A stretch of 64,000 bases of DNA, taken from the NCBI RefSeq assembly GCF_019966495.1, contig NZ_JAIMIA010000002.1, forward strand, positions 62,001 through 126,000, given 5' to 3'. Source of the stretch: Tateyamaria pelophila. Lineage in GTDB: Bacteria > Pseudomonadota > Alphaproteobacteria > Rhodobacterales > Rhodobacteraceae. Under the pieces are notes generated by a model that was not told where the DNA came from, searched no databases, and saw only the letters and a program-made list of their open reading frames with translations. The position numbers and the translations under genes were made by a program. Below, one piece after another: positions 50,044 to 61,147 of the stretch; position 1 is the first letter of the stretch; each line of letters begins with the position of its first letter.

Positions 50044-50123
50044 GTGACGTCTCCTTTGGTTTTGGAAATCCTAGCCTTGGGGGCCGTTCAATGACCAGCC
50101 CTTGTCGGCATCGTTGTGATGAG

Positions 50124-50210
50124 GCGCTCACGCGCCACGCGATGATTGCACCCGCCTCCGGCCGGTGCGTTTTTGCCTCCGGCGGGAGTTTATCTGGCAA
50201 GATGAAGGTG
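50124..50210 (+). repeat. Three-hairpin intergenic element, copy B
   Basis: GGCGC-TCAC-GCGCC (hairpin 1), a spacer ACGCGATGATT, GCACC-c-GCC-TCC-GGC-c-GGTGC (hairpin 2), GTTTTTG, CTCC-GGCG-GGAG (hairpin 3), then TTTATCTGGCAAGATGAAGG. It lies between the HpaI and regulator genes, both on minus. Confidence 0.8.
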
Positions 50211-50212
50211 GA

Positions 50213-50917
50213 TCAGAGGACTTTGATGACGTCTTTTTCAACGGATAACATATAGCCACGTCTGGCGATGTTCTTGACCAGCAGCTCGCTGACGATCTGG
50301 TTGCCCAGCGTGTCGCGCAGCCGTTTGATCCGCGTGGCACCTGCGGCCTCGTCGCAGTCGGCGGACGCTCGGCCAGAGATCACCCCTTCGATTTCCGACC
50401 CGGAGAGGATATCGTCGTCCATCCGTGCTTCGGCCAGGACCGACATCGTTTCCATTGCGGCGTCGGTAAGTTTAAAGCCGAGGCAATTGAGATAGACGGT
50501 GTTTTCCTCGCGGCTGATCAGCAGGGAATTGACCTGAATACCGACACGTTCGATTTGTGCAAAACGCCGGTTCAGGCCCACGATCAGGAAAAGAAAGACC
50601 AAGGCCGCGCTCATCATCGCCGTAGCGAAGACCAAGAGCACGAAAATCACCATGCGGTAACTGGCCAGCGTGTCGGAAAAGGCGTTTCCGGACTGCGCGA
50701 GGATCTCGAGCAGTTTGATTTCAGCCTGGCTGTTGAGGTTGGCGTTTTCGATGAACATCCGTTCAACGCGGGCATCAAAAGCGCCGGAATCGGGCAGAGT
50801 CAGAAACAGCAGGAGCGCCGCTCCCAGCAACAGGATCAGAATGCCAGCGACACCCAGCACAACCAGTCGCCCGCCGGTGCGCCGCATCTCAGAAGCGGAG
50901 GTAGTATTGTCCTGCAC
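50213..50917 (-). CDS. Membrane-anchored OmpR-type winged-helix regulator
   Basis: The 234-residue protein has two membrane segments (about residues 16-40 and 86-112) enclosing a periplasmic loop of about 45 residues, then a short linker and a C-terminal OmpR/PhoB-type winged helix. The latter includes FKLTDAAMETMSVLAEAR, then IKRLRDTLGNQIVSELLVKN and IARRGYMLS. Topology is opposite to ToxR/CadC, with DNA binding at the C-terminus. The start is GTG 50917 behind GGAAAG, inside the end of the upstream gene (29-bp overlap). It may sense an envelope signal. Confidence 0.8.
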   Translation of the reverse strand: MQDNTTSASEMRRTGGRLVVLGVAGILILLLGAALLLFLTLPDSGAFDARVERMFIENANLNSQAEIKLLEILAQSGNAFSDTLASYRMVIFVLLVFATAMMSAALVFLFLIVGLNRRFAQIERVGIQVNSLLISREENTVYLNCLGFKLTDAAMETMSVLAEARMDDDILSGSEIEGVISGRASADCDEAAGATRIKRLRDTLGNQIVSELLVKNIARRGYMLSVEKDVIKVL

Positions 50918-51170
50918 TGTCTTTCCTTTGATCGAGCCCTTCGGGGCCAAAAACCGACATCACTTGCAGTAGCGTCCAGCCGCTTGCCATTAGCCGCCCT
51001 GCCAGTTCGTCTTTTGCTGCACCCATTGAGCATTGGCCAGAGAGTTGCACCACACCGTAGTGCAGGCGCAGGGGGCTGTCTTGCTTGGCCTTGTAATCGG
51101 CAAAGCACTGCGCGGCTGCCCCACTGGTCAAAGCGCATGTGAGCGCGAAGGAGAGAGCAATGTGTTTCAT
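50889..51170 (-). CDS. Small exported protein overlapping the membrane regulator
   Basis: The 93-residue protein starts at ATG 51170 with a signal peptide (IALSFALTCALTSGAAAQ) and has two cysteines in the mature part (CFADYKAK, GQCSMGAAKDELAGRL), consistent with one disulfide. It ends inside the regulator gene, so the two are translationally linked. No family is recognised. It is a candidate periplasmic partner of the regulator's loop (inference). Confidence 0.7.
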   Translation of the reverse strand: MKHIALSFALTCALTSGAAAQCFADYKAKQDSPLRLHYGVVQLSGQCSMGAAKDELAGRLMASGWTLLQVMSVFGPEGLDQRKDSAGQYYLRF

Positions 51171-51344
51171 GACCGTGAGAGTGGAGTGAAGTGCGCGGAT
51201 ATTCAATAACAACCGGGCGCTCGGGGTCGTGTCATCAGATAACAAGGGGTCGTTATTGCCTGTCTGGTGACCGCAGCGGCACATTCGTTTCAGTACCAAG
51301 AGCCTTGGTCCGATTTCCGAATGATCCCACAAAGGACGATCCAA

Positions 51345-51842
51345 ATGACATATCTTTCATACCGCCATTTCATCGCTATCGTTGTGACCAGCGCGATTGC
51401 CATCGCCGGTTTCAGTGCGGCCCCGGCCCGCGCTGGGCAAGACGACGTGAACAAGGCCTTGGCCGCTCTGGCAGGCTTGGCCGTTTTGGGCGTCGTCATT
51501 CACAACGTGCGCGAGGACGACAAGAAGAGCAAACCGAGGGTCATCGATCGCCGTTATGGTCCAGATGATCGTTTTCGCGAAGAGGTGCGCCGTGGTGAGA
51601 AGCCGCGGCCCTTGCCGCGGCGTGTGAACCGCAAGCTTTTGCCGCAGCAGTGTTTGCGCAGTGTCGAGACCCGGGAGGGGCGCATGCACGTATTTGGGCA
51701 ACGTTGCCTTGAGAGGAATTATCGTTTTGCCGACAGTCTGCCGCGCAAATGTGAGCAGAAGTTTCGGACAGATCGGGGCAAGCGTATGGGTTACGGCGCC
51801 CGGTGTCTGAGTCGGAGAGGGTATGCGCTGGCCCGTCGATAG
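51345..51842 (+). CDS. Exported basic protein of unknown function
   Basis: The 165-residue protein has a signal peptide ending SAAPARAGQ, a second hydrophobic stretch (ALAALAGLAVLGVVIHNV), and a long basic, arginine-rich domain with four cysteines (QQCLRSVE, GQRCLERNYR, PRKCEQKF, ARCLSRR) at similar spacing. That suggests two related disulfide-bonded half-repeats. AAGGAC lies before the ATG. It resembles hypothetical secreted proteins of roseobacters. Function unknown. Confidence 0.75.
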   Translation: MTYLSYRHFIAIVVTSAIAIAGFSAAPARAGQDDVNKALAALAGLAVLGVVIHNVREDDKKSKPRVIDRRYGPDDRFREEVRRGEKPRPLPRRVNRKLLPQQCLRSVETREGRMHVFGQRCLERNYRFADSLPRKCEQKFRTDRGKRMGYGARCLSRRGYALARR

Positions 51843-51910
51843 GAAGGGGATGTGACGATCCTCCAGGTGTCGAACTGGCCGGGCGGTGCGTCGGCGCCGC
51901 CTTGCTTCAT

Positions 51911-52000
51911 TGCGCTGCCATGCGGCAGCACGTGACGTTTGCACTTTCCGCCGGAAAGTGCGTTTTGCCTTCGGCGAGGATTTTTTGGAACAGAGAAAGG
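51911..52000 (+). repeat. Three-hairpin intergenic element, copy C
   Basis: GCTGCC-ATGC-GGCAGC (hairpin 1), ACGTGACGTTT, GCACTTTCC-GCC-GGAAAGTGC (hairpin 2, perfect 9-bp stem), GTTTTG, then CCTTCGGCGAGGA, TTTTTTGGAACAGAGAAAGG. It is directly upstream of rnhB, and its last bases (AAAGGA) serve as the rnhB ribosome site. Confidence 0.8.
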
Positions 52001-52007
52001 AACCAGC

Positions 52008-52598
52008 GTGCCGGACTTTTCCCTTGAGGCGGCCATTGGCGGATATGTGGCCGGGGTAGATGAGGTGGGTCGTGGTCCTTTGGCGGGTCCGGTCACGGCG
52101 GCCGCAGTCGTGTTGGACGTGGCGCGTATCCCGGTCGGATTGGACGATTCAAAAAAGCTGACGGCGCGGGCCCGTGAAGCCTTGTGGTCCAAGATCCTGA
52201 ACTGCGCGGATGTGTCTGTCGCCCATGCCTCTGTGGCGGAGATCGATCGACTGAACATTTTGCGTGCGTCCCATTTGGCGATGGAGCGGGCGGTGGCCGG
52301 TCTGCGTTTTGTGCCTGATCATCTGTTAATCGACGGCAACATGATACCGCGCGGAATAGCCCTTCCGGCGTCGGCTGTGGTCAAGGGGGATGGGCGGTCG
52401 CAGTCGATTGCAGCGGCTTCAATTGTGGCCAAAATATGTCGTGATCGGATCATGGTGGATTTGGCGCAACAGCATCCCGGTTATGGCTGGCACACGAACA
52501 TGGGATATGGATCGAAAAGCCACATAGCTGCGCTTCAAAATCTAGGGGTGACACCACACCATAGGCGTTCGTTCAAGCCCGTCCACAATATGTTGTGA
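52008..52598 (+). CDS. rnhB: Ribonuclease HII
   Basis: The 196-residue protein has GYVAGVDEVGRGPLAGPV (catalytic DE), DDSKKLT, LLIDGNMIPRG with a catalytic aspartate, and KGDGRSQSIAAASIVAKICRD. It removes ribonucleotides from DNA. It starts at GTG 52008 with AGAAAGGAACC upstream. It is followed by ccrM, the classical alphaproteobacterial order. Confidence 0.97.
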   Translation: MPDFSLEAAIGGYVAGVDEVGRGPLAGPVTAAAVVLDVARIPVGLDDSKKLTARAREALWSKILNCADVSVAHASVAEIDRLNILRASHLAMERAVAGLRFVPDHLLIDGNMIPRGIALPASAVVKGDGRSQSIAAASIVAKICRDRIMVDLAQQHPGYGWHTNMGYGSKSHIAALQNLGVTPHHRRSFKPVHNML

Positions 52599-52614
52599 CA
52601 AGTCTGTTTCTTAA

Positions 52615-52710
52615 GTCGCTGATTCAAAAAAGAATTTGACCGCGAATCAGGTAGGCTTCATCTTGGACCCAACCAACGAGTGCACAAGCACCGGGGACAG
52701 AGGCAGATAG
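52615..52710 (+). promoter_or_regulatory. ccrM upstream region with two GANTC sites
   Basis: GATTC at 52621-52625 and GAATC at 52644-52648 are both GANTC, the CcrM target. A TTAA at 52611-52614 could be half of a CtrA site, but the second half is missing. In Caulobacter two GANTC sites lie in the ccrM leader and make the gene methylation-sensitive. The same arrangement here suggests self-regulation. Confidence 0.6.
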
Positions 52711-53811
<1,101 letters not shown>

Positions 53812-53876
53812 CATTTTTCGAACACCGCCGGTGCCTGCGGCCTACCCATGGCCACTCTGCAAGGCACTACACCTAT

Positions 53877-53904
53877 GCCCCGCCTCTTTTGGCGGGGCTT
53901 TTTT
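53877..53904 (+). terminator. Intrinsic terminator of rnhB-ccrM
   Basis: GCCCCGCC, a TCTTTT loop and GGCGGGGC form an 8-bp stem followed by six T. Confidence 0.95.
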
Positions 53905-53948
53905 GCGTTGATGGCGTACATTCATTGCAAACCGCGCGGAGATCGCCA

Positions 53949-55301
53949 ATGACGGATGTCACACAAAACAGGTCCACGTCAGGGCGTTCCTCCGACGCAG
54001 ATGAGGTGCCGTCGCACCGCCATGCGCGGGAAGCCCTGGCGCGCAACAAGCAGGAAGGTATGGATCTGGCCGTCAAGGCGCGGACGACGGCGCTTCTGAT
54101 TACGGCGGGTTTGCTGGTCTTTCTCAATCCAAGCTGGGAGGTCATCTGGTATCAAGGCTTGTTGTTGCTTTTGGTGTTGGTTGGTCTCTTGCAAAGGCGC
54201 GTCGGGCGCGTCGGCCAATCGCGCGTCGAGCTTTTGTTGCTCTTTCTGGATCTGCTGTTGATGACGGTTGCCTTGCTGGTACCGAACCCGTTGTCGAAAG
54301 AGGACCTGCCCACCGCTCTGATTTATCAGTTTGACGTTTTCCAGTATTTTTACATTATTCTGGCAACCGGCGTGTTGTCCTATTCGTGGCGCACGATTGT
54401 CGCGATTGGAAACTGGACGCTTTGTCTGTGGCTTTTGGGAACGCTTTCCATCTGGTTTTTCGGCCGGACGGTGCCGGGCCTGAGCGAAGCGGCTCTGGAG
54501 CTTTTTCCCGGCAACATGGATCTGGGCGCGCAACTGGATCCGAATCTTGTCCATTGGGATTTGCGGATTCAGGAAGTTATGGTGTTCATCATTGTGGCGG
54601 GCATTCTGGCCGTCACGGTAAGGCGTTATCAGAATTTGGTTCTCGACAGCGCTGAAATGTCCCGCGAACGCACCAATCTGGCGCGCTATTTTTCTCCGAC
54701 CATGGTCGAAGAGCTGTCACAAAAGGATGAACCGCTTGGCCAGATCCGCAGCCATGATGCGGCGGTGCTTTTTGTCGATATCGTCGGGTTCACGGCCTAT
54801 TCCGATGGCCGCCCGCCGCAGGAGGTGATCGAGACCTTGCGTACCTTTCACGCGCGGATGGAAAGCGAGGTGTTTGCCCATGGCGGCACGCTCGACAAAT
54901 ACCTGGGGGACGGGTTGATGGCCACGTTCGGAACGCCGTTGCCGCTGAAGGATGATGCGGCACGAGCGGTGGCCTGCGTGCGGGCGATGGCTGACCGAAT
55001 GGCTGCGCTGAATGCGGCCCGCAAGGCGGATGGGCTGCCCGAAATCGATGCGCGCTTTGGCTTGCATTTCGGTCCGGTGGTTCTTGGGGATATCGGGGCC
55101 AACCGGCTGGAATTCGCCGTTCTGGGCGACACCGTCAATGTCGCCAGCAGGCTGGAGGCGATGACGCGATCCCTGAATGTGCAGGCCATCGCTAGCGATG
55201 CCGCAATCCAGGCGGCCGGTAGCCATGAAGGCTTTGAGGCGGTCCCGGACCAAGCGGTGCGCGGCGTGGCCAAGCCGCTCGCCGTTTGGGTGTTGCCTTA
55301 G
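53949..55301 (+). CDS. Class III adenylate/guanylate cyclase with membrane domain
   Basis: The 450-residue protein has about six membrane spans in residues 40-230, then a cytosolic cyclase domain. AAVLFVDIVGFTAYSD (first metal aspartate), TLDKYLGDGLMATFG (second) and LEFAVLGDTVNVASRLE are conserved. It makes cyclic nucleotide, probably cAMP. The membrane part could be a sensor of MASE type. Single gene; it follows the ccrM terminator. Confidence 0.93.
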   Translation: MTDVTQNRSTSGRSSDADEVPSHRHAREALARNKQEGMDLAVKARTTALLITAGLLVFLNPSWEVIWYQGLLLLLVLVGLLQRRVGRVGQSRVELLLLFLDLLLMTVALLVPNPLSKEDLPTALIYQFDVFQYFYIILATGVLSYSWRTIVAIGNWTLCLWLLGTLSIWFFGRTVPGLSEAALELFPGNMDLGAQLDPNLVHWDLRIQEVMVFIIVAGILAVTVRRYQNLVLDSAEMSRERTNLARYFSPTMVEELSQKDEPLGQIRSHDAAVLFVDIVGFTAYSDGRPPQEVIETLRTFHARMESEVFAHGGTLDKYLGDGLMATFGTPLPLKDDAARAVACVRAMADRMAALNAARKADGLPEIDARFGLHFGPVVLGDIGANRLEFAVLGDTVNVASRLEAMTRSLNVQAIASDAAIQAAGSHEGFEAVPDQAVRGVAKPLAVWVLP

Positions 55302-55381
55302 GTACGCAGTAGCCTTTCTTAGAACTTAAATATTAAAATCAAGTATTTGCAAAGGTAGGTCAATAACGCCTGCGTCTACGA

Positions 55382-56515
55382 TCAGCGGGGCAAGGGATTG
55401 CTGGCCTTGTTGTAAGGCCGCCAATCGGTGATTTCAGGATAATACATATCTCGCCATTGCTTGACCCTCGGGTTCATCACCCGCCGCCAGACACGTGGGA
55501 TCATGGCGGCAATCGTCATCACCGGATAGCCATAAGGCAACTGTGGGGCATCGGCTTCGGTATAGTTTTGCAACATTGGAAAGCGGCGATCTGGTTTGTA
55601 GTGATGATCGGAATGGCGCTGGAGATTTATCAAAAGCCAGTTGGAAGCCCTCTGGGCGGCATTCCAGGAATGGCGCGGCTGGACGTGTTCGTATTTTCCA
55701 CCGCCCAGATGCTTGCGGGTCAAACCGTAATGTTCAATGTAATTGACCAGTTCCAATTGCCAGATCGCGGTTCCGGCTTGCATCGCAAAGAGGCCGACGC
55801 CGACCCACCCGCCCAAGGCGAAAGCCAAAAGCAAAAAGGCCGACTGCAGCATCGCATATTTCCAGAACGGGTTCGAGCGATCTGTTGCGGGCAGGTTTTT
55901 GCGCGCCAGCATCGCTTTTTCTGCGGCCCATGCAGAGGCAAGGCTTTGTCGGAGCACGCGGGGATAGAACCGATAGAAACTCTCCCCCATGCGCGCCGTC
56001 ACCGGATCGCGCGGCGTTGCGACATAGCGGTGATGCACCAGCAGGTGCTCCGAGCGGAAATGGGAATAGAGCACCATCGCGAGCAACGCATCCGCCAGCC
56101 ACCGCTCCACCTTGTTCTTCTGGTGCATCAACTCGTGACTGTAGTTGATCCCCACGGTGCCATTGATAACACCGACGCCAAAGAAAATGGCGAGCTTTTC
56201 GAACGTGTTCAAATGCGTGGCGGGGGCCACGTACCAGATCAGGCTGAACAGCGTTACAAATTGCACCGGCGGCCAAACGGTTGTGAGGGCGCGGTACCAG
56301 CGCAAGTCATCCTCGGTTGTTTCCAGATCGGCATTGTCGGTGTTCACGCCAACCGCCAGATCGAGGATTGAAAACATGTACCACGTGACAAGAGGCAGCA
56401 GTATGACCGTCCAGCCGCCATGTATCGCCGTGACCCACGCCAGCGGGATCAGCAAGAACGAGATCCAGAAGGGCAGGGCGCTTTGGAATTTTGCGACGGT
56501 TTCGGGCGGCAGGGT
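55382..56515 (-). CDS. AlkB-type alkane monooxygenase/fatty acid desaturase-family membrane enzyme
   Basis: The 377-residue integral membrane di-iron enzyme has the histidine boxes SHELMHQKNK, SEHLLVHHR, and LQRHSDHH, plus NYIEHYGL, the HYG motif of alkane hydroxylases. Six hydrophobic segments are present. It probably hydroxylates medium-chain alkanes or fatty compounds at the end position. The ATG at 56515 (AAAGGA upstream) is preferred over a GTG at 56542. No rubredoxin gene adjoins it; the reductase at 25 kb could supply electrons (speculative). Confidence 0.92.
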   Translation of the reverse strand, partial: TLPPETVAKFQSALPFWISFLLIPLAWVTAIHGGWTVILLPLVTWYMFSILDLAVGVNTDNADLETTEDDLRWYRALTTVWPPVQFVTLFSLIWYVAPATHLNTFEKLAIFFGVGVINGTVGINYSHELMHQKNKVERWLADALLAMVLYSHFRSEHLLVHHRYVATPRDPVTARMGESFYRFYPRVLRQSLASAWAAEKAMLARKNLPATDRSNPFWKYAMLQSAFLLLAFALGGWVGVGLFAMQAGTAIWQLELVNYIEHYGLTRKHLGGGKYEHVQPRHSWNAAQRASNWLLINLQRHSDHHYKPDRRFPMLQNYTEADAPQLPYGYPVMTIAAMIPRVWRRVMNPRVKQWRDMYYPEITDWRPYNKASNPLPR

Positions 56516-56600
56516 CATCAACGCGATCCTTTGGGGCTTCACCGTTAAATCATAGGGGGTTAACGGGTCGTGTGCAAAGCGGGACCCGGCAGCGCAGCGC

Positions 56601-57647
56601 TTAACTCTGCGTCAGGTCAAAAGCTTTGCGCATCACGGTCGGCAGATCGGAGGGTCGAAAATCCGTGCGTGGCAGGAACGCACCGACATCGGTCTGCACC
56701 TCTGCGCCGACATCGGCCACCATCACGTCAAGCATCAGGTGAAAATGGGTGAAAGTGTGGCGCACTTCGCCCGGAATTTTTTGCCAGTCTGCCGCAATTG
56801 GCGGATTTTGCGGCCGCTGATCCGACACGGTGATCCAATCCGATCCGGGCCAGCCCAACATACCACCCAAAAGGCCCTTTTCCGGGCGTGTTTCCAACAA
56901 CACCGCCCCGTCCGCCCGCCGCGCGATGTAGACTGTGCCGTGGCGCACCGGTTTTGCCGCTTTCGGTGTTTTCCTTGGTAATTCAGCTGCGGTACCTGCG
57001 ATGCGTGCGACACAGGGGTCACGCCATGGGCAGATGCCGCAAGCCGGAGACTTGGGAGTGCAGATCGTGGCGCCAAGATCCATGACCGCCTGCGCATAGT
57101 CCCCCGGGCGGTCTGCCGGTGTCAGAGCCTCCGCATAGGCGGTCAGGATCGGTTTGGCCGACGGCAGGGGGGTGTGTTCGTCATGCATGCGGGCCATGAC
57201 CCGCTCGACATTGCCGTCCACGACCGTGTGGCGCAGGTCAAAGGCGATGGAAGCAATCGCCGCCGCCGTGTAGGGGCCGATTCCGGGCAGTTTCAACAAG
57301 GCCGCGTGATCGGGGGGAAACACACCGCCATGATCTGCGACCACAGCACGGGCACATTTGAGCAAGTTGCGCGCGCGGGCGTAATACCCAAGTCCCGCCC
57401 AAGCCCCCATGACGTCGGCATCTTCCGTCGCAGCAAGGTCGCTGACGGTTGGCCATCGCGCGATAAACTTTTGAAAATAGGACGTTACGGCGGCAACAGT
57501 GGTCTGTTGCAGCATAATCTCACTCATCCAGATGGCATAGGGGTCGGGGCGTTTGCCAGACGCCTTATCGGTCGGGGAAACACGCCATGGCATGATGCGG
57601 GCGTGGACATCATACCAGTCCAACAGGTCGGCGCTGAGGTCACGCAA
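56601..57647 (-). CDS. mutY: A/G-specific adenine glycosylase MutY
   Basis: The 348-residue protein has the MutY N-terminus (MPWR), EIMLQQTTVAAVTSYF, the helix-hairpin-helix LPGIGPYTAAAIASIAFD and VVDGNVERVMAR with the catalytic aspartate. Its iron-sulfur loop CTPKSPACGICPWRDPC has the C-x6-C-x2-C-x5-C spacing. The C-terminal NUDT1-like 8-oxoG domain follows (LLETRPEKGLLGGM). It removes adenine opposite 8-oxoguanine. The likely start is TTG 57647 with AGGAA upstream. It is divergent from the DciA-like gene. Confidence 0.96.
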   Translation of the reverse strand: MRDLSADLLDWYDVHARIMPWRVSPTDKASGKRPDPYAIWMSEIMLQQTTVAAVTSYFQKFIARWPTVSDLAATEDADVMGAWAGLGYYARARNLLKCARAVVADHGGVFPPDHAALLKLPGIGPYTAAAIASIAFDLRHTVVDGNVERVMARMHDEHTPLPSAKPILTAYAEALTPADRPGDYAQAVMDLGATICTPKSPACGICPWRDPCVARIAGTAAELPRKTPKAAKPVRHGTVYIARRADGAVLLETRPEKGLLGGMLGWPGSDWITVSDQRPQNPPIAADWQKIPGEVRHTFTHFHLMLDVMVADVGAEVQTDVGAFLPRTDFRPSDLPTVMRKAFDLTQS

Positions 57648-57731
57648 GATTTATGTTCCTTTCGGGCATCTGATCTGGGTTCCGGCCACAGCATCCGCTA
57701 TGGTTGGCGCAAGATGAAGGAGAACATAGTC

Positions 57732-58253
57732 ATGGCCACGCGCCGCGCCAGTACAAAAGGGTTCAAACGGACAGCTTCGTTGCTGACCGGGCGGATTCGT
57801 CAGGCGAGCGAGAGCCGGGGCTTTGCACAAAGCCGGTTGCTGACGGATTGGGCCGAAGTGGTCGGACCGGATGTGGCCGCGATCGCGCGGCCCGTCGAAG
57901 TCAGCTATGGCCGGGGCGGCATGGGGGCGACCCTGACGCTGCTCACCACCGGCGCACAGGCCCCGATGCTCGAAATGCAAAAAGAGCAACTGCGCGCCAA
58001 GGTAAACGGCGTCTACGGCTACAATGCCATTGCGCGCATCCGGATCACGCAAACAGCCGCAACCGGATTTGCCGAAGGGCGGATCGCGTTCGAAGGCAAG
58101 CCCAAGGAGACCGGGCCAAAGACACCGGACGCAGCGACGCATCAGGCGGCATCCGCTGTGGTGGCCCCCGTGGAAGACGACAGTTTGCGCGCGGCCCTCG
58201 AACGGTTGGGCGCACATATTCTGACAAAAGAAAAACAAGGAACACGTACATGA
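57732..58253 (+). CDS. DUF721/DciA-like protein
   Basis: The 173-residue protein has GFAQSRLLTDWAEVVGPDVA and a beta-rich segment ending MLEMQKEQLRAKVNGVYGYN. This is the DUF721 core, which in DciA loads the DnaB helicase. The AAGGAG site lies before ATG 57732. The stop overlaps the dsbA-like start. Its position next to mutY is usual for Rhodobacteraceae (from memory). A replication role is by family only. Confidence 0.85.
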   Translation: MATRRASTKGFKRTASLLTGRIRQASESRGFAQSRLLTDWAEVVGPDVAAIARPVEVSYGRGGMGATLTLLTTGAQAPMLEMQKEQLRAKVNGVYGYNAIARIRITQTAATGFAEGRIAFEGKPKETGPKTPDAATHQAASAVVAPVEDDSLRAALERLGAHILTKEKQGTRT

Positions 58254-58933
58254 ATCGCATTCTTGCCGTAGCGGCAGTGGCCATCGGCGTGGCCGGATAC
58301 TTTTGGTATTCGTCAACCGCCTCGAACTCAACGAACAACGCTCAGTCGACTTATTTGCTGGGCGCCGCCCATGCGCAGGAAGCAGACGCTGAAATCGACA
58401 CATCGACCGTGGTGGATATGGCCATCGGCAACCCCGATGCACCGGTCACTGTCATTGAATATGCAAGCTTTACCTGCCCGCATTGTGGCACGTTCCACAC
58501 GGGTCCGTTCAAACAACTGAAGGCGGATTATATCGATACCGGCAAGATCAACTTTGTCTACCGTGAGGTTTATTTCGACCGCTTTGGCCTTTGGGCGTCT
58601 GCGGTTGCGCGCTGTGCCGGGCCGGACAAGTTCTTTGGGATCACCGATCTGCTGTATTCCAGCCAGTCCGAATGGACGCGCGCCGGTGGCGGTGACCCCG
58701 GTGCAATCGTCGAAGAGCTGCGCAAGATTGGCCGCCTGGCCGGTCTTGACAACGATGCGATCGAAGCCTGTTTGCAAGATGGCGACAAGCTGCGGACGTT
58801 GGTGGCGTGGTATCAGGAAAACGCGGAGCGGGATGGGATTCAGTCCACGCCGAGCTTTGTCATCGATGGCCGTATGTACAACAACATGAGCTATGACGAG
58901 ATGAAGCGCCTGATCGACGAAGCGTCCAGCTGA
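58250..58933 (+). CDS. DsbA-family thioredoxin-fold protein
   Basis: The 227-residue protein has an N-terminal membrane anchor or signal (ILAVAAVAIGVAGYFWY), then ASFTCPHCGTFH (active-site CPHC) and the cis-proline loop IQSTPSFVIDG. It is a periplasmic disulfide oxidase or isomerase of the ScsC/Com-1 type. ATGA overlaps link it to the DciA-like gene before and the CoA-transferase after. Confidence 0.93.
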   Translation: MNRILAVAAVAIGVAGYFWYSSTASNSTNNAQSTYLLGAAHAQEADAEIDTSTVVDMAIGNPDAPVTVIEYASFTCPHCGTFHTGPFKQLKADYIDTGKINFVYREVYFDRFGLWASAVARCAGPDKFFGITDLLYSSQSEWTRAGGGDPGAIVEELRKIGRLAGLDNDAIEACLQDGDKLRTLVAWYQENAERDGIQSTPSFVIDGRMYNNMSYDEMKRLIDEASS

Positions 58934-60060
58934 TGCCAGATGCGCCCAAGGGCCCGCTGGCCGGGTTGCGCGTGGTCGAACTGGCACGGGTTCTGGCGGG
59001 CCCCTGGGCAGGCCAGACATTGGCGGACCTGGGCGCGGAAGTGATCAAGGTCGAAGCCCCGCGCGGCGACGATACCCGCCAGTGGGGCCCGCCTTTTGTG
59101 ACGCGGGATGACGACGTGTCAGCCGCATACTTCCACTCGACGAACCGTGGAAAATCCTCTGTCGTGATTGATTTCAAGACAGAAGAGGGCCAAGCGGACC
59201 TGCGCGCGCTGATCGGCACTGCAGATATCCTGATCGAGAATTTCAAAGTGGGCGGCCTGGCTAAATACGGGTTGGACTATGACAGCCTGAAGGATGATTT
59301 TCCGCGTCTGATTTACTGTTCGATCACCGGATTTGGGCAAACAGGCCCATATGCCAGCCGGGCCGGTTATGATTTCATCATTCAAGGTATGTCTGGGTTG
59401 ATGTCGATCACCGGTGAACCAGGCGGGCAGCCGCAAAAATCCGGTGTCGCGATTACGGACCTCTTTACCGGGGTCTATGCCACGACGGCAATTCTGGCTG
59501 CTGTCCATCAGAGGCTGCAAACCGGACGTGGGCAGCATATCGACATGGCCTTGCTTGATGTCGCTGTGGCGATGACGTCAAACCAGGGGATGAACTATCT
59601 GACCAGTGGTGTCGCCCCCGGAATGATGGGCAATGCGCATATGAACCTGACGCCCTATCAGGTTTTCGATTGTTCGGACGGTCATATCATTATCGCCACC
59701 GGCAACGACAGTCAGTATCAGCGGCTCTGTCATCTATTGGGGCTGGACGAGATGGCGCTGGCGCCTGAATTCCTGCGCAATTCGGATCGGATCGCCAATC
59801 GCGCGGAGATGACACGTCGGCTGACGGAAGCGACAGTGCAGCGTGGCCGGGCAGATTTGCTTGCGGCCTGTGAAGCCGCAGGTGTGCCAGCCGGTCCGAT
59901 CAACGACATGGCAGATGTAATGGCCGATCCGCAGGTTCAGGCCCGCGGCATGCAGATCGAATTGGGCGGTGTGCCTGGCATCCGGACCCCCATCGTGTTT
60001 TCTGATGCAGAATTGTGCCTGGACCGCCCGTCGCCGAAACTGGGCGAAAGCGAAGTCTGA
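58933..60060 (+). CDS. CaiB/BaiF family CoA-transferase
   Basis: The 375-residue family III CoA-transferase shows PLAGLRVVELARVLAGPWAG, ADLGAEVIKVEAPRGDD, and SGVAITDLFTGVYATTAILA with the conserved aspartate nucleophile position. QHIDMALLDVAVAM and a C-terminal PAGPINDMADVMADPQV complete the family pattern. It moves CoA between carboxylic acids. The substrate is unknown. It starts at the ATG overlapping the dsbA-like stop. Confidence 0.94.
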   Translation: MPDAPKGPLAGLRVVELARVLAGPWAGQTLADLGAEVIKVEAPRGDDTRQWGPPFVTRDDDVSAAYFHSTNRGKSSVVIDFKTEEGQADLRALIGTADILIENFKVGGLAKYGLDYDSLKDDFPRLIYCSITGFGQTGPYASRAGYDFIIQGMSGLMSITGEPGGQPQKSGVAITDLFTGVYATTAILAAVHQRLQTGRGQHIDMALLDVAVAMTSNQGMNYLTSGVAPGMMGNAHMNLTPYQVFDCSDGHIIIATGNDSQYQRLCHLLGLDEMALAPEFLRNSDRIANRAEMTRRLTEATVQRGRADLLAACEAAGVPAGPINDMADVMADPQVQARGMQIELGGVPGIRTPIVFSDAELCLDRPSPKLGESEV

Positions 60061-60064
60061 AGGG

Positions 60065-60153
60065 GGCGCTGCCGCGCCACACGATGTTTTGCATCCGCCT
60101 TCGGCAGATGCGATTTGTGCCTCCGGCGGGGATATTTTTGGCCAAGAGAGGTC
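60065..60153 (+). repeat. Three-hairpin intergenic element, copy D
   Basis: GGCGC-TGCC-GCGCC (hairpin 1), ACACGATGTTTT, GCATC-c-GCC-TTC-GGC-a-GATGC (hairpin 2), GATTTGTG, CCTCCGGCGGGGA and TATTTTTGGCCAAGAGAGG. It fills the space between the converging CoA-transferase and lpxK genes. Confidence 0.8.
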
Positions 60154-61147
60154 AGGGTTTGGGAAGTCTTGCCAAAGCTTCGGTCAGTTCGGCGGGATCG
60201 TTTAACGCCAGTCGGACTGGCAGGGTAATGACCTTGTGCCGGAAAGTGGCCGGCAGTCGGGCTGCGTCCTTCTCGGTCGTGACCAATTGCGCGCCTTTGC
60301 TGCGGGCTTCGGTTTCCAACCGGCTCAGCAGAGCTGGCGAGAGTTTTTGGTGATCTGCGAGGTCTTCGCTGCGCAGGATGTTTGCGCCAAGATCACGCAG
60401 CGTTTCAAAGAATTTTTCAGGCCGCGCGATGCCGGCGAAAGCAATAAAGGGCGTGTCCGTCCAGTCCATGCCGGTCTGGAGGGGGGTCAGTGCGCCGCTG
60501 ATATGCCGCAATCCGGACGGCAAAACATTTTTTCGAAATGCCGTCTGTGCTGCGTCGCTTCCAATGGAAAGCAGGATGTCGGCGCGTCGCAGGCCCTTTT
60601 CGACGCGTTCACGCAGAGGTCCCGCCGGCAGGCAGTATCCGTTGCCAAAGCCGGTTTCTGCATCAACAACCACCAGTGAAAGATCGTGGAACAGGCTTGG
60701 ATCCTGGAAACCATCATCCAGCACAATTGCGGTAGCGCCTGCCGCAATGGCGGCTTGCGCGCCTGCGACCCGATCTTTGGCGACCCAGGTGCGGGCGAAG
60801 GCGCTGAGCAGCAACGGCTCGTCACCGGTTTGGGCGGCCGTGTGGCGACCTGGATCGACTTCGGTTGGGTTGATGATCGTGCCGCCATATCCACGGCTTA
60901 CGATATGGGGATCATGGAAGACATCCCGCAATTTTTCGGTGACGGCGATGACCGTCGGTGTCTTGCCAGTGCCGCCGACGTTGATGTTGCCGACGCAGAT
61001 TACGGGGACGGCCATGCGGTTGCGCGGCCCCTTTTGCAATCTGCGTGCCGTCATATGGGCATAGGTTGCCCCCAGCGGCGAAAGCACCCGCGCGCGCCAG
61101 TCCCGGCGCCCATTTGGTGAAGTCCAGAACCTGGGCGCGTGCATCAT
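60152..61147 (-). CDS. lpxK: Tetraacyldisaccharide 4'-kinase LpxK
   Basis: The 331-residue protein has ICVGNINVGGTGKTPTVIAV (Walker A), VSRGYGG, GDEPLLLSAFA and IVLDDGFQ, all LpxK signatures. It phosphorylates the lipid A precursor at 4' using ATP at the inner membrane. The start lies in ATGATG overlapping the waaA stop; 61147 or 61144 are both possible. It is the last gene of the minus-strand lipid A/Kdo cluster. Confidence 0.95.
   Translation of the reverse strand: MMHAPRFWTSPNGRRDWRARVLSPLGATYAHMTARRLQKGPRNRMAVPVICVGNINVGGTGKTPTVIAVTEKLRDVFHDPHIVSRGYGGTIINPTEVDPGRHTAAQTGDEPLLLSAFARTWVAKDRVAGAQAAIAAGATAIVLDDGFQDPSLFHDLSLVVVDAETGFGNGYCLPAGPLRERVEKGLRRADILLSIGSDAAQTAFRKNVLPSGLRHISGALTPLQTGMDWTDTPFIAFAGIARPEKFFETLRDLGANILRSEDLADHQKLSPALLSRLETEARSKGAQLVTTEKDAARLPATFRHKVITLPVRLALNDPAELTEALARLPKP

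Follow-up and report, generated by a model that had tools for sequence, protein, structure and literature searches.

A repeated hairpin-and-tag element at gene ends in Tateyamaria pelophila and related bacteria

The window analyzed here is a stretch of 64,000 nucleotides from contig NZ_JAIMIA010000002.1 of Tateyamaria pelophila, whose draft genome comprises 5.65 Mb in 280 contigs. Three of its intergenic regions hold copies, designated B, C, and D, of an element in which three hairpins are followed by a tag, the tags being of several types that are numbered below. Genes in the window were named from their Pfam matches, and two genes near these copies (50213–50917 and 51345–51842) had no match. 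Copy B (50121–50211, + strand) carries a type II tag, and its tag end adjoins the stop codon of the minus-strand gene 50213–50917. Copy C (51908–52003, + strand) carries a type I tag, one base shorter than usual, and is located in the leader of the RNase HII gene, immediately upstream of the gene start at about 52008. Copy D (60063–60155, + strand), with a type VI tag, occupies the gap between the convergent stop codons of a CoA-transferase gene (ending at 60060) and LpxK (stop at 60152).

An earlier note, made from the letters of the window alone, had described these three copies, and all were found where it placed them, on the + strand and with the arms it listed. Hairpin 1 is GGCGC/GCGCC in B (50123–50136, + strand, as are all parts given here) and in D (60065–60078), and GCTGCC/GGCAGC in C (51914–51929). 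For hairpin 2 the note gave arms of five pairs, which are present; in B and D, however, the stem extends further and includes one internal mismatch, reading GCACCCGCC TCC GGCCGGTGC in B (50148–50168) and GCATCCGCC TTC GGCAGATGC in D (60091–60111). In C, hairpin 2 is GCACTTTCC/GGAAAGTGC, followed by GTTTT (51941–51961). Hairpin 3 and the tag together occupy 50174–50207 in B (TGCC TCC GGCG, then the type II tag GAG-TTTAT-CTG-G-CAAGATGAAG) and 60118–60151 in D (TGCC TCC GGCG, then the type VI tag GGA-TATTT-TTG-G-CCAAGAGAGG, which ends GAGG, not GAAG). In C they occupy 51963–52000, where a terminator-like stem of seven pairs is followed by ATTTTTTGG and by a type I tag ending AACAGAGAAAGG.

The likeness of these copies goes beyond chance. 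When copy D was used as a blastn query, 20 matches were found in its own genome, with copy B at E = 4e-11, and matches occurred in all 18 congeners searched and in none (0/12) of the genomes from other families of the class. The outcome of no further copies, which the earlier note had named as a test, is thereby excluded. In a MAFFT alignment of 23 copies, 87.0% of the pair cells were intact, compared with 75.3% in shuffled sequences and 31–44% when one side of the stem was slid along, and 46 cells had changed on both sides, compared with 13.6 in shuffles. This signal was carried by hairpins 1 and 2; hairpin 3 had zero pairs changed on both sides in the 23-copy set, and its variety appears in other copies. 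When 43 matches were aligned to R1, a covariance model of the element, 134 cells had changed on both sides, compared with 33, although this alignment was fitted to the model and so leans toward it. The covariation check proposed earlier thus came out above shuffles and slid partners, while its phylogenetic part was judged by these two controls only, and kinship alone can beat shuffles without any structure. The folding energy of the + strand was near the shuffle level in the three copies (z = −1.5, −1.9, and −0.7) and is weak evidence, so the case for the element rests on comparison. Copies B, C, and D are real members of one structured family, and the selection on folding that had been suggested for them is supported by the covariation and by the kept position of the element in the congeners read (see below).

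The three-hairpin architecture is not the unit of this family, as had been supposed; the constant part proved to be a hairpin of interchangeable sequence together with a bipartite tag. The tag consists of a 3-nt code, a T-tract (such as TTTTT, TATTT, or TTTAT), three free bases, a G, and about ten coded bases that mostly end GAAG or GAAA (GAGG in D). Its length is nearly constant, copy C being one base short and five copies, in four of eight genomes, one base longer. Among the copies read, the stems vary far more than the linkers, and the three-hairpin form in the genus can be written [stem 1]-ACACGATGTTTTGCA-[stem 2]-TGCGTTTTG-[stem 3]-tag. In many copies the third stem reads GCCTCCGGCGG, and CCCTTCGGGG, GCGCTCCGCGC, or GGGGGCTCTGCCCCC with a further C-run also occur. 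A class with a possible alternative fold, GGGGGCTCTGCCCCC-(second hairpin)-CCCCCGGGAT, was also observed, in which the first G-run is able to pair with either of two C-runs before the tag.

A core-plus-tag pattern gave 276 matches in 19 of the 20 genomes of the genus, and its reversed control gave 0. The tag statistics were calculated from 150 listed matches of these 276, all of which have the GCCTCCGGCGG core because the pattern demands it. They were grouped by six tag bases, where the entropy is therefore zero by construction; the code, the letters of the T-tract, and the G were not used in the grouping. Code and tag went together in these 150 matches: GGA occurred nearly always with AACAGG or AACAGA, GAG with CAAGAT, TGG or TCG with TCAGAA, GCA with AACAAT, CGG with CGAAAT, and AGG with CGAAAG. 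The information shared by code and tag was 2.37 bits, compared with 0.46 bits in shuffles (shuffle maximum, 0.57). The three free bases differed within every type of at least five copies, and their link to the tag type was weaker yet above shuffles (1.28 bits vs 0.84 bits; shuffle maximum, 1.0).

Each genome holds a few tag types, and the sets differ between genomes. In the genome of T. pelophila, type I occurred at 38 sites (control, 0), with the GCCTCCGGCGG stem in 9 of the 29 sites read. Type III occurred at 33 sites in the congener G003 (control, 0), and in G093, which belongs to another genus, the main tag was GACACATGATG (40 matches; reversed control, 0), with a AATAAGAAA type also present. 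One letter of type I tends to mark the species: among the matches listed, 6 of 6 copies of the source genome read AACAGA, and five congeners have AACAGG in 23 of their 24 copies. Locus C, which the core-plus-tag pattern does not always catch, provides exceptions, since G001 reads AACCAGAG there and G014 and G016 read AACAGAG. Because the same tag is found on different stems and free bases lie inside the tag, we argue for selection on the tag and against mere copying. On the same grounds of shared tags on different hairpins and varying inner bases, gene conversion as the sole cause of the uniform tags is unlikely, and this is by argument only.

The three-hairpin form is one variant of a wider family. 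R1 matches at E ≤ 1 numbered 52, 70, 95, and 48 in four genomes, and with one genome per genus (the source genome included) the family was matched in 79 of 149 genomes at E ≤ 1e-4, in a search whose filters lose weak matches. The commonest form was found at 16–74 sites per genome in the ten genomes searched, and most copies detected by the core pattern in the genome of T. pelophila are without stems 1 and 2. The proposal that this is a repeat family of Rhodobacteraceae is therefore supported by matches across genomes of the family and by many copies per genome. The earlier note also knew of no name for the element. No Rfam family reached its gathering score in the window, with chance-level matches only at E ≤ 5 (4 and 0), and searches of the literature by name and by sequence words, with subscription papers outside their scope, found no description of it. 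Two further groups of matches were set aside as chance: 14 phage records gave partial matches only, at E of about 4, in Pseudomonas and Streptococcus phages, and plasmid matches in Paenibacillus, Leptospira, and Rhizobium lay inside annotated genes.

We analyzed the genomic placement of the core modules with genes called by a custom hexamer caller trained on these loci; the shuffles used in the analyses of module placement, T-tracts, and tag sets preserve single-base composition only. Of 146 distinct core modules, 53 were flanked by convergent genes and 3 by divergent genes, and the caller placed another 9 inside genes. In co-directional gaps, 45 modules read with the genes and 36 against them. 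Divergent gaps held 3 of 137 modules, whereas they accounted for 22 of 91 background gaps (at least 40 bases), and divergent regions are therefore avoided. In some copies the element takes up all of the sequence that separates two convergent stop codons. The 36 bases preceding the core fold at −10.3 kcal/mol, compared with −7.3 kcal/mol in shuffles, and those after the tag at −8.5 kcal/mol, compared with −7.8 kcal/mol. In the three-hairpin set, from which locus L089 was left out, 22 of the 28 matches outside genes follow a gene of the same direction, and four of the other six are locus B orthologues. The single strand orientation noted for the copies holds within the window but not across the genome, where a degenerate pattern matched 22 times in the forward and 14 times in the reverse direction (1 match with the reversed pattern as control).

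In G093, 26 of the 74 cores are arranged as 13 inverted pairs, forming palindromes of about 110 bases close to stop codons. In 7 of the 13 pairs even the free bases agree between the two arms, and one pair combines two tag types. The core also occurred on plasmids of Leisingera, Phaeobacter, Ruegeria, and Cereibacter. Twelve annotated plasmid regions were read, in which the core was located between rfbB and rfbD in one, between gcvH and gcvP in reverse orientation in two, and between the Y-family and error-prone DNA polymerase genes in one; these four copies likely lie inside operons. In the plasmid copies L122, L123, L126, L129, and L130, an apparent second hairpin (about 2034–2080) was seen by eye just past the tag, and on the other strand it would precede the pyrimidine-rich complement of the tag. 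The runs of strand orientation were near expectation along two contigs (contig 1 of G003, 20 runs vs 16.5 expected, z = 1.3; contig 8 of G158, 13 vs 11.5, z = 0.7), showing no sign of replication polarity, and a replication-polar signal was accordingly rejected.

A fourth copy in the window, absent from the earlier note, was found as an R1 match at E = 0.0032. This copy A (978–1033, + strand) has two hairpins, with hairpin AGATTTTTCGTACGAAAAATCT, core ACCTCCGGTGG, and the type II tag GAG-TTTAC-TTG-G-CAAGATGAAG, and ends 13 bases before the ATG at 1047. Together with copy C, whose tag lies at ribosome-binding distance in the RNase HII leader, it would fit a trans-acting small RNA or a riboswitch-like leader. 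We regard such a role as very improbable, given that each genome has many copies, which adjoin different genes and mostly lie at 3′ ends, and that the window holds no Rfam match at gathering score and nothing convincing at E ≤ 5.

The regions of loci B, C, and D were then compared in 16 of 18 congeners, chosen for having a match there (G006 and G010 were left out). The flanking gene order was common to all 16 regions, except for the CoA-transferase gene (58933–60060 in the window), which lies between the DsbA-like gene and LpxK and was present in 5 of the 16; element D can occur where this gene is missing. The element was matched at B in 16 of 16 regions and at C in 15 of 16. For D, 9 of 16 regions gave a match at E < 0.001, and a further one (G016) had E = 0.19. 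At B, hairpin 1 was GGCGC/GCGCC in 16 of 17 species, as judged by eye, and hairpin 2 occurred in several versions. The tags at B and C were sorted by eye into six types, with near variants lumped, and placed on a tree from ten proteins in which 5 of 14 inner branches are weak. The tag type at B required 10 changes on this tree of 17 species, and shuffled labels required 10.1 on average (no higher in 128 of 200 shuffles). Based on this result, the locus has been inherited while the 3′ module of B was repeatedly replaced. The tag type at C required 4 changes, compared with 6.5 for shuffled labels (no higher in 2 of 200), and thus partly tracks descent.

These changes bear on a second explanation, in which the copies are those of a repeat family, selfish or non-autonomous, that is moved by an enzyme other than a RAYT. 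The code and tag would then be needed by the enzyme, the free bases would go unread, and copies would replace one another at the hairpins. Discrete tag types that recur within genomes and differ between them fit this explanation, as do the shuffle-like switching of the B tag at a locus that keeps its place and hairpin 1, and the thirteen inverted pairs of G093, whose long palindromes are laid out like dimers of repetitive extragenic palindromic (REP) sequences. We nevertheless consider it possible rather than probable, because loci B and C are kept in nearly all the congeners read (16 and 15 of 16), and no mobilizing gene was found, four loci with Y1-type genes lacking a close core match. Moreover, no empty site with clean junctions was seen, an ordinary terminator standing instead where D is missing. 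Whole copies are also not simply copied, since the same tag is found after different hairpins within one genome.

In gene-end placement, palindromes, and inverted pairs, the element also resembles the classical REP sequences driven by RAYT transposases, the bacterial interspersed mosaic elements (BIMEs), and the REP doublets forming hairpins (REPINs). All are short palindromic units that lie at the 3′ ends of genes in both directions, alone or in inverted pairs, with many copies per genome and several sequence types, although dimers of this kind were found here in G093 only. The Y1 transposase domain Y1_Tnp (PF01797), which includes RAYT, was detected in 0 of 12 element-bearing genomes, whereas the control search detected it in 5 of 14 known genomes; in the genus it was found in 4 of 20 genomes, 3 of them over the cut-off. 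No close core match was detected at the four Y1-type loci, and two loose matches, with three mismatches each, were found at L137. The REP stem has a GTAG foot, whereas here the constant part is the flanking tag and the stem is variable: of 146 modules, 1 had GTAG or CTAC in the 10 bases preceding the core, and GTAG occurred in 1 of 150 matches of 33 bases, there within the free bases. A RAYT-driven origin is rejected on these three observations (the absence of Y1_Tnp, the missing foot, and the Y1-type loci) and is highly improbable. The suggestion that the element is REP-like therefore holds for its placement, at gene 3′ ends in either orientation with inverted pairs in one genome, and fails for the transposase and the foot.

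Several other known systems are of a similar kind. The Rhizobium intergenic mosaic elements (RIME and ABC) are modular, palindromic, intergenic elements of alphaproteobacteria. The DNA uptake sequences of Neisseriaceae are short species-specific tags, often in inverted pairs at gene ends where they act as terminators; they differ from the present element, which occurs in tens, not many hundreds, of copies per genome and with several tag types in one genome. CGTC-tagged REPs occur mostly in alphaproteobacteria, in species of all orders of the class, mostly as dimers, with no dedicated transposase known (PMC3733652). They are described as having a CGTC, TGTC, or CCTC tag, a stem of 8–9 bp beginning AT, and a CCA tail, none of which was seen here when the elements were compared by eye with that description, and identity with them is unlikely on this basis. 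The main text of that paper, its species figures aside, does not mention Rhodobacter, Ruegeria, or Paracoccus. The Rhodobacterales motif HRC-8-4, found near cco operons, is described as a single terminator-like stem (PMC8632094).

The element shares a stem-loop, a T-tract, and compensating stem changes with intrinsic terminators, and at locus D it stands in for one. A tailored scan of 56 copies found a stem followed by a T-tract in 44 on the + strand and in 7 on the − strand, compared with 27% of 168 shuffles; 40 of these 56 copies are B, C, or D orthologues, and weak copies were left out (C of G014, G013, and G018; D of G016 and G018). In most three-hairpin copies, but not at locus B or in common-core orientation, the GC-rich hairpin and T-tract lie on the sense strand of the upstream gene. 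In all six congeners without element D, the DsbA-like gene is followed by a hairpin such as CGCCCGGCC/GGTCGGGCG directly before four to eight T's. In four congeners with element D and without the CoA-transferase gene, the hairpin is kept and the adjoining T-tract is lost (CGCGC, ACGCT, TCTTG, and CTGCG instead). The contrast of four to six gave a Fisher value of 0.005, uncorrected for shared descent, and suggests that element D took over termination from an ordinary terminator. Could the copies simply be ordinary intrinsic terminators, alike through convergence and base composition? The hairpin and T-tract would be accounted for, and compensatory evolution is known for terminators (PMC5381666). 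However, about ten fixed bases follow the T-tract (reversed control, 0, compared with 40, 38, and 33 real matches), tag types are specific to genomes, orientation shows no preference in common-core copies, and a common spacer joins hairpins 1 and 2 of the three-hairpin copies. We consider this explanation improbable.

Several observations weigh against a terminating role. A strict terminator scan found no site at B or D and two sites at C. Orientation between co-directional genes was even (45 vs 36, p = 0.37; tag-selected sets, 27 vs 20, p = 0.38), and for this reason the common-core copies do not fit a plain terminator. Copy B is antisense to both neighboring genes. At locus C, the ordinary hairpin-T terminator of the upstream gene stands before the element in 16 of 16 congeners (12 by pattern and 4 by eye), so the element does not replace it; the genome of T. 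pelophila has a weakened version. The tag at C lies at ribosome-binding distance from RNase HII, and the gene would be shut off by a strong terminator at this point unless its promoter is located inside the element. At locus D, one of the four decayed cases (G004, CGCGC) still has five T's a few bases further, and G016, whose element is weak (E = 0.19) and which lacks such a hairpin, is not part of the four-to-six count. Just three changes on the tree suffice to account for presence at D, with G016 counted as present, and there are therefore few independent events.

Taking these observations together, we interpret the element as a terminator or boundary element at the gene ends of roseobacters and their relatives, REP-like in placement but without RAYT, and we give this interpretation a probability of roughly one half. 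Termination or a boundary is the most likely role, and the tags are its new, unexplained part. The element would consist of one or more stem-loops, whose sequence may change freely while pairing is kept, followed by a tag of near-constant length. In the three-hairpin form, the + strand would act as a terminator, a stem-loop followed by a U-rich stretch, at which RNA polymerase would stop and the upstream gene would be closed. Alternatively, the + strand terminator could keep antisense transcripts from running into the 3′ end of the neighboring gene. In the other orientation, the stem-loops would join the 3′ untranslated RNA of the preceding gene, as REP and BIME hairpins are thought to do. More tentatively, a sequence-specific factor that binds DNA or RNA might read the tag and strengthen the boundary. 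The tag may function at the level of double-stranded DNA or in both orientations, because the orientation is even and B and C are counter-cases to a plain terminator.

A bolder form of the boundary interpretation, which we regard as speculative and rather unlikely, is that roseobacter gene ends are marked combinatorially. Interchangeable terminator-like hairpins would be combined with bipartite tag types, each read by its own sequence-specific factor; factors and genome-wide tag sets would co-evolve, and the tags would be species dialects that are exchanged at fixed loci with the boundary kept. Among marine bacteria, roseobacters are common. Should the tags be read by proteins, a new layer of gene-end control would be present, and the tag swaps at the same locus would provide a ready comparative experiment; if the tags are instead marks of a mobilizing enzyme, a REP-like system without RAYT would be at hand. 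Either way, the tag patterns ease the finding and annotation of copies.

Directly downstream of the RNase HII gene that follows copy C, the window contains a gene for a CcrM-like DNA adenine methyltransferase (52711–53811; N6_N4_Mtase and RAMA domains), which occupies the same place in 16 of 16 congener regions.

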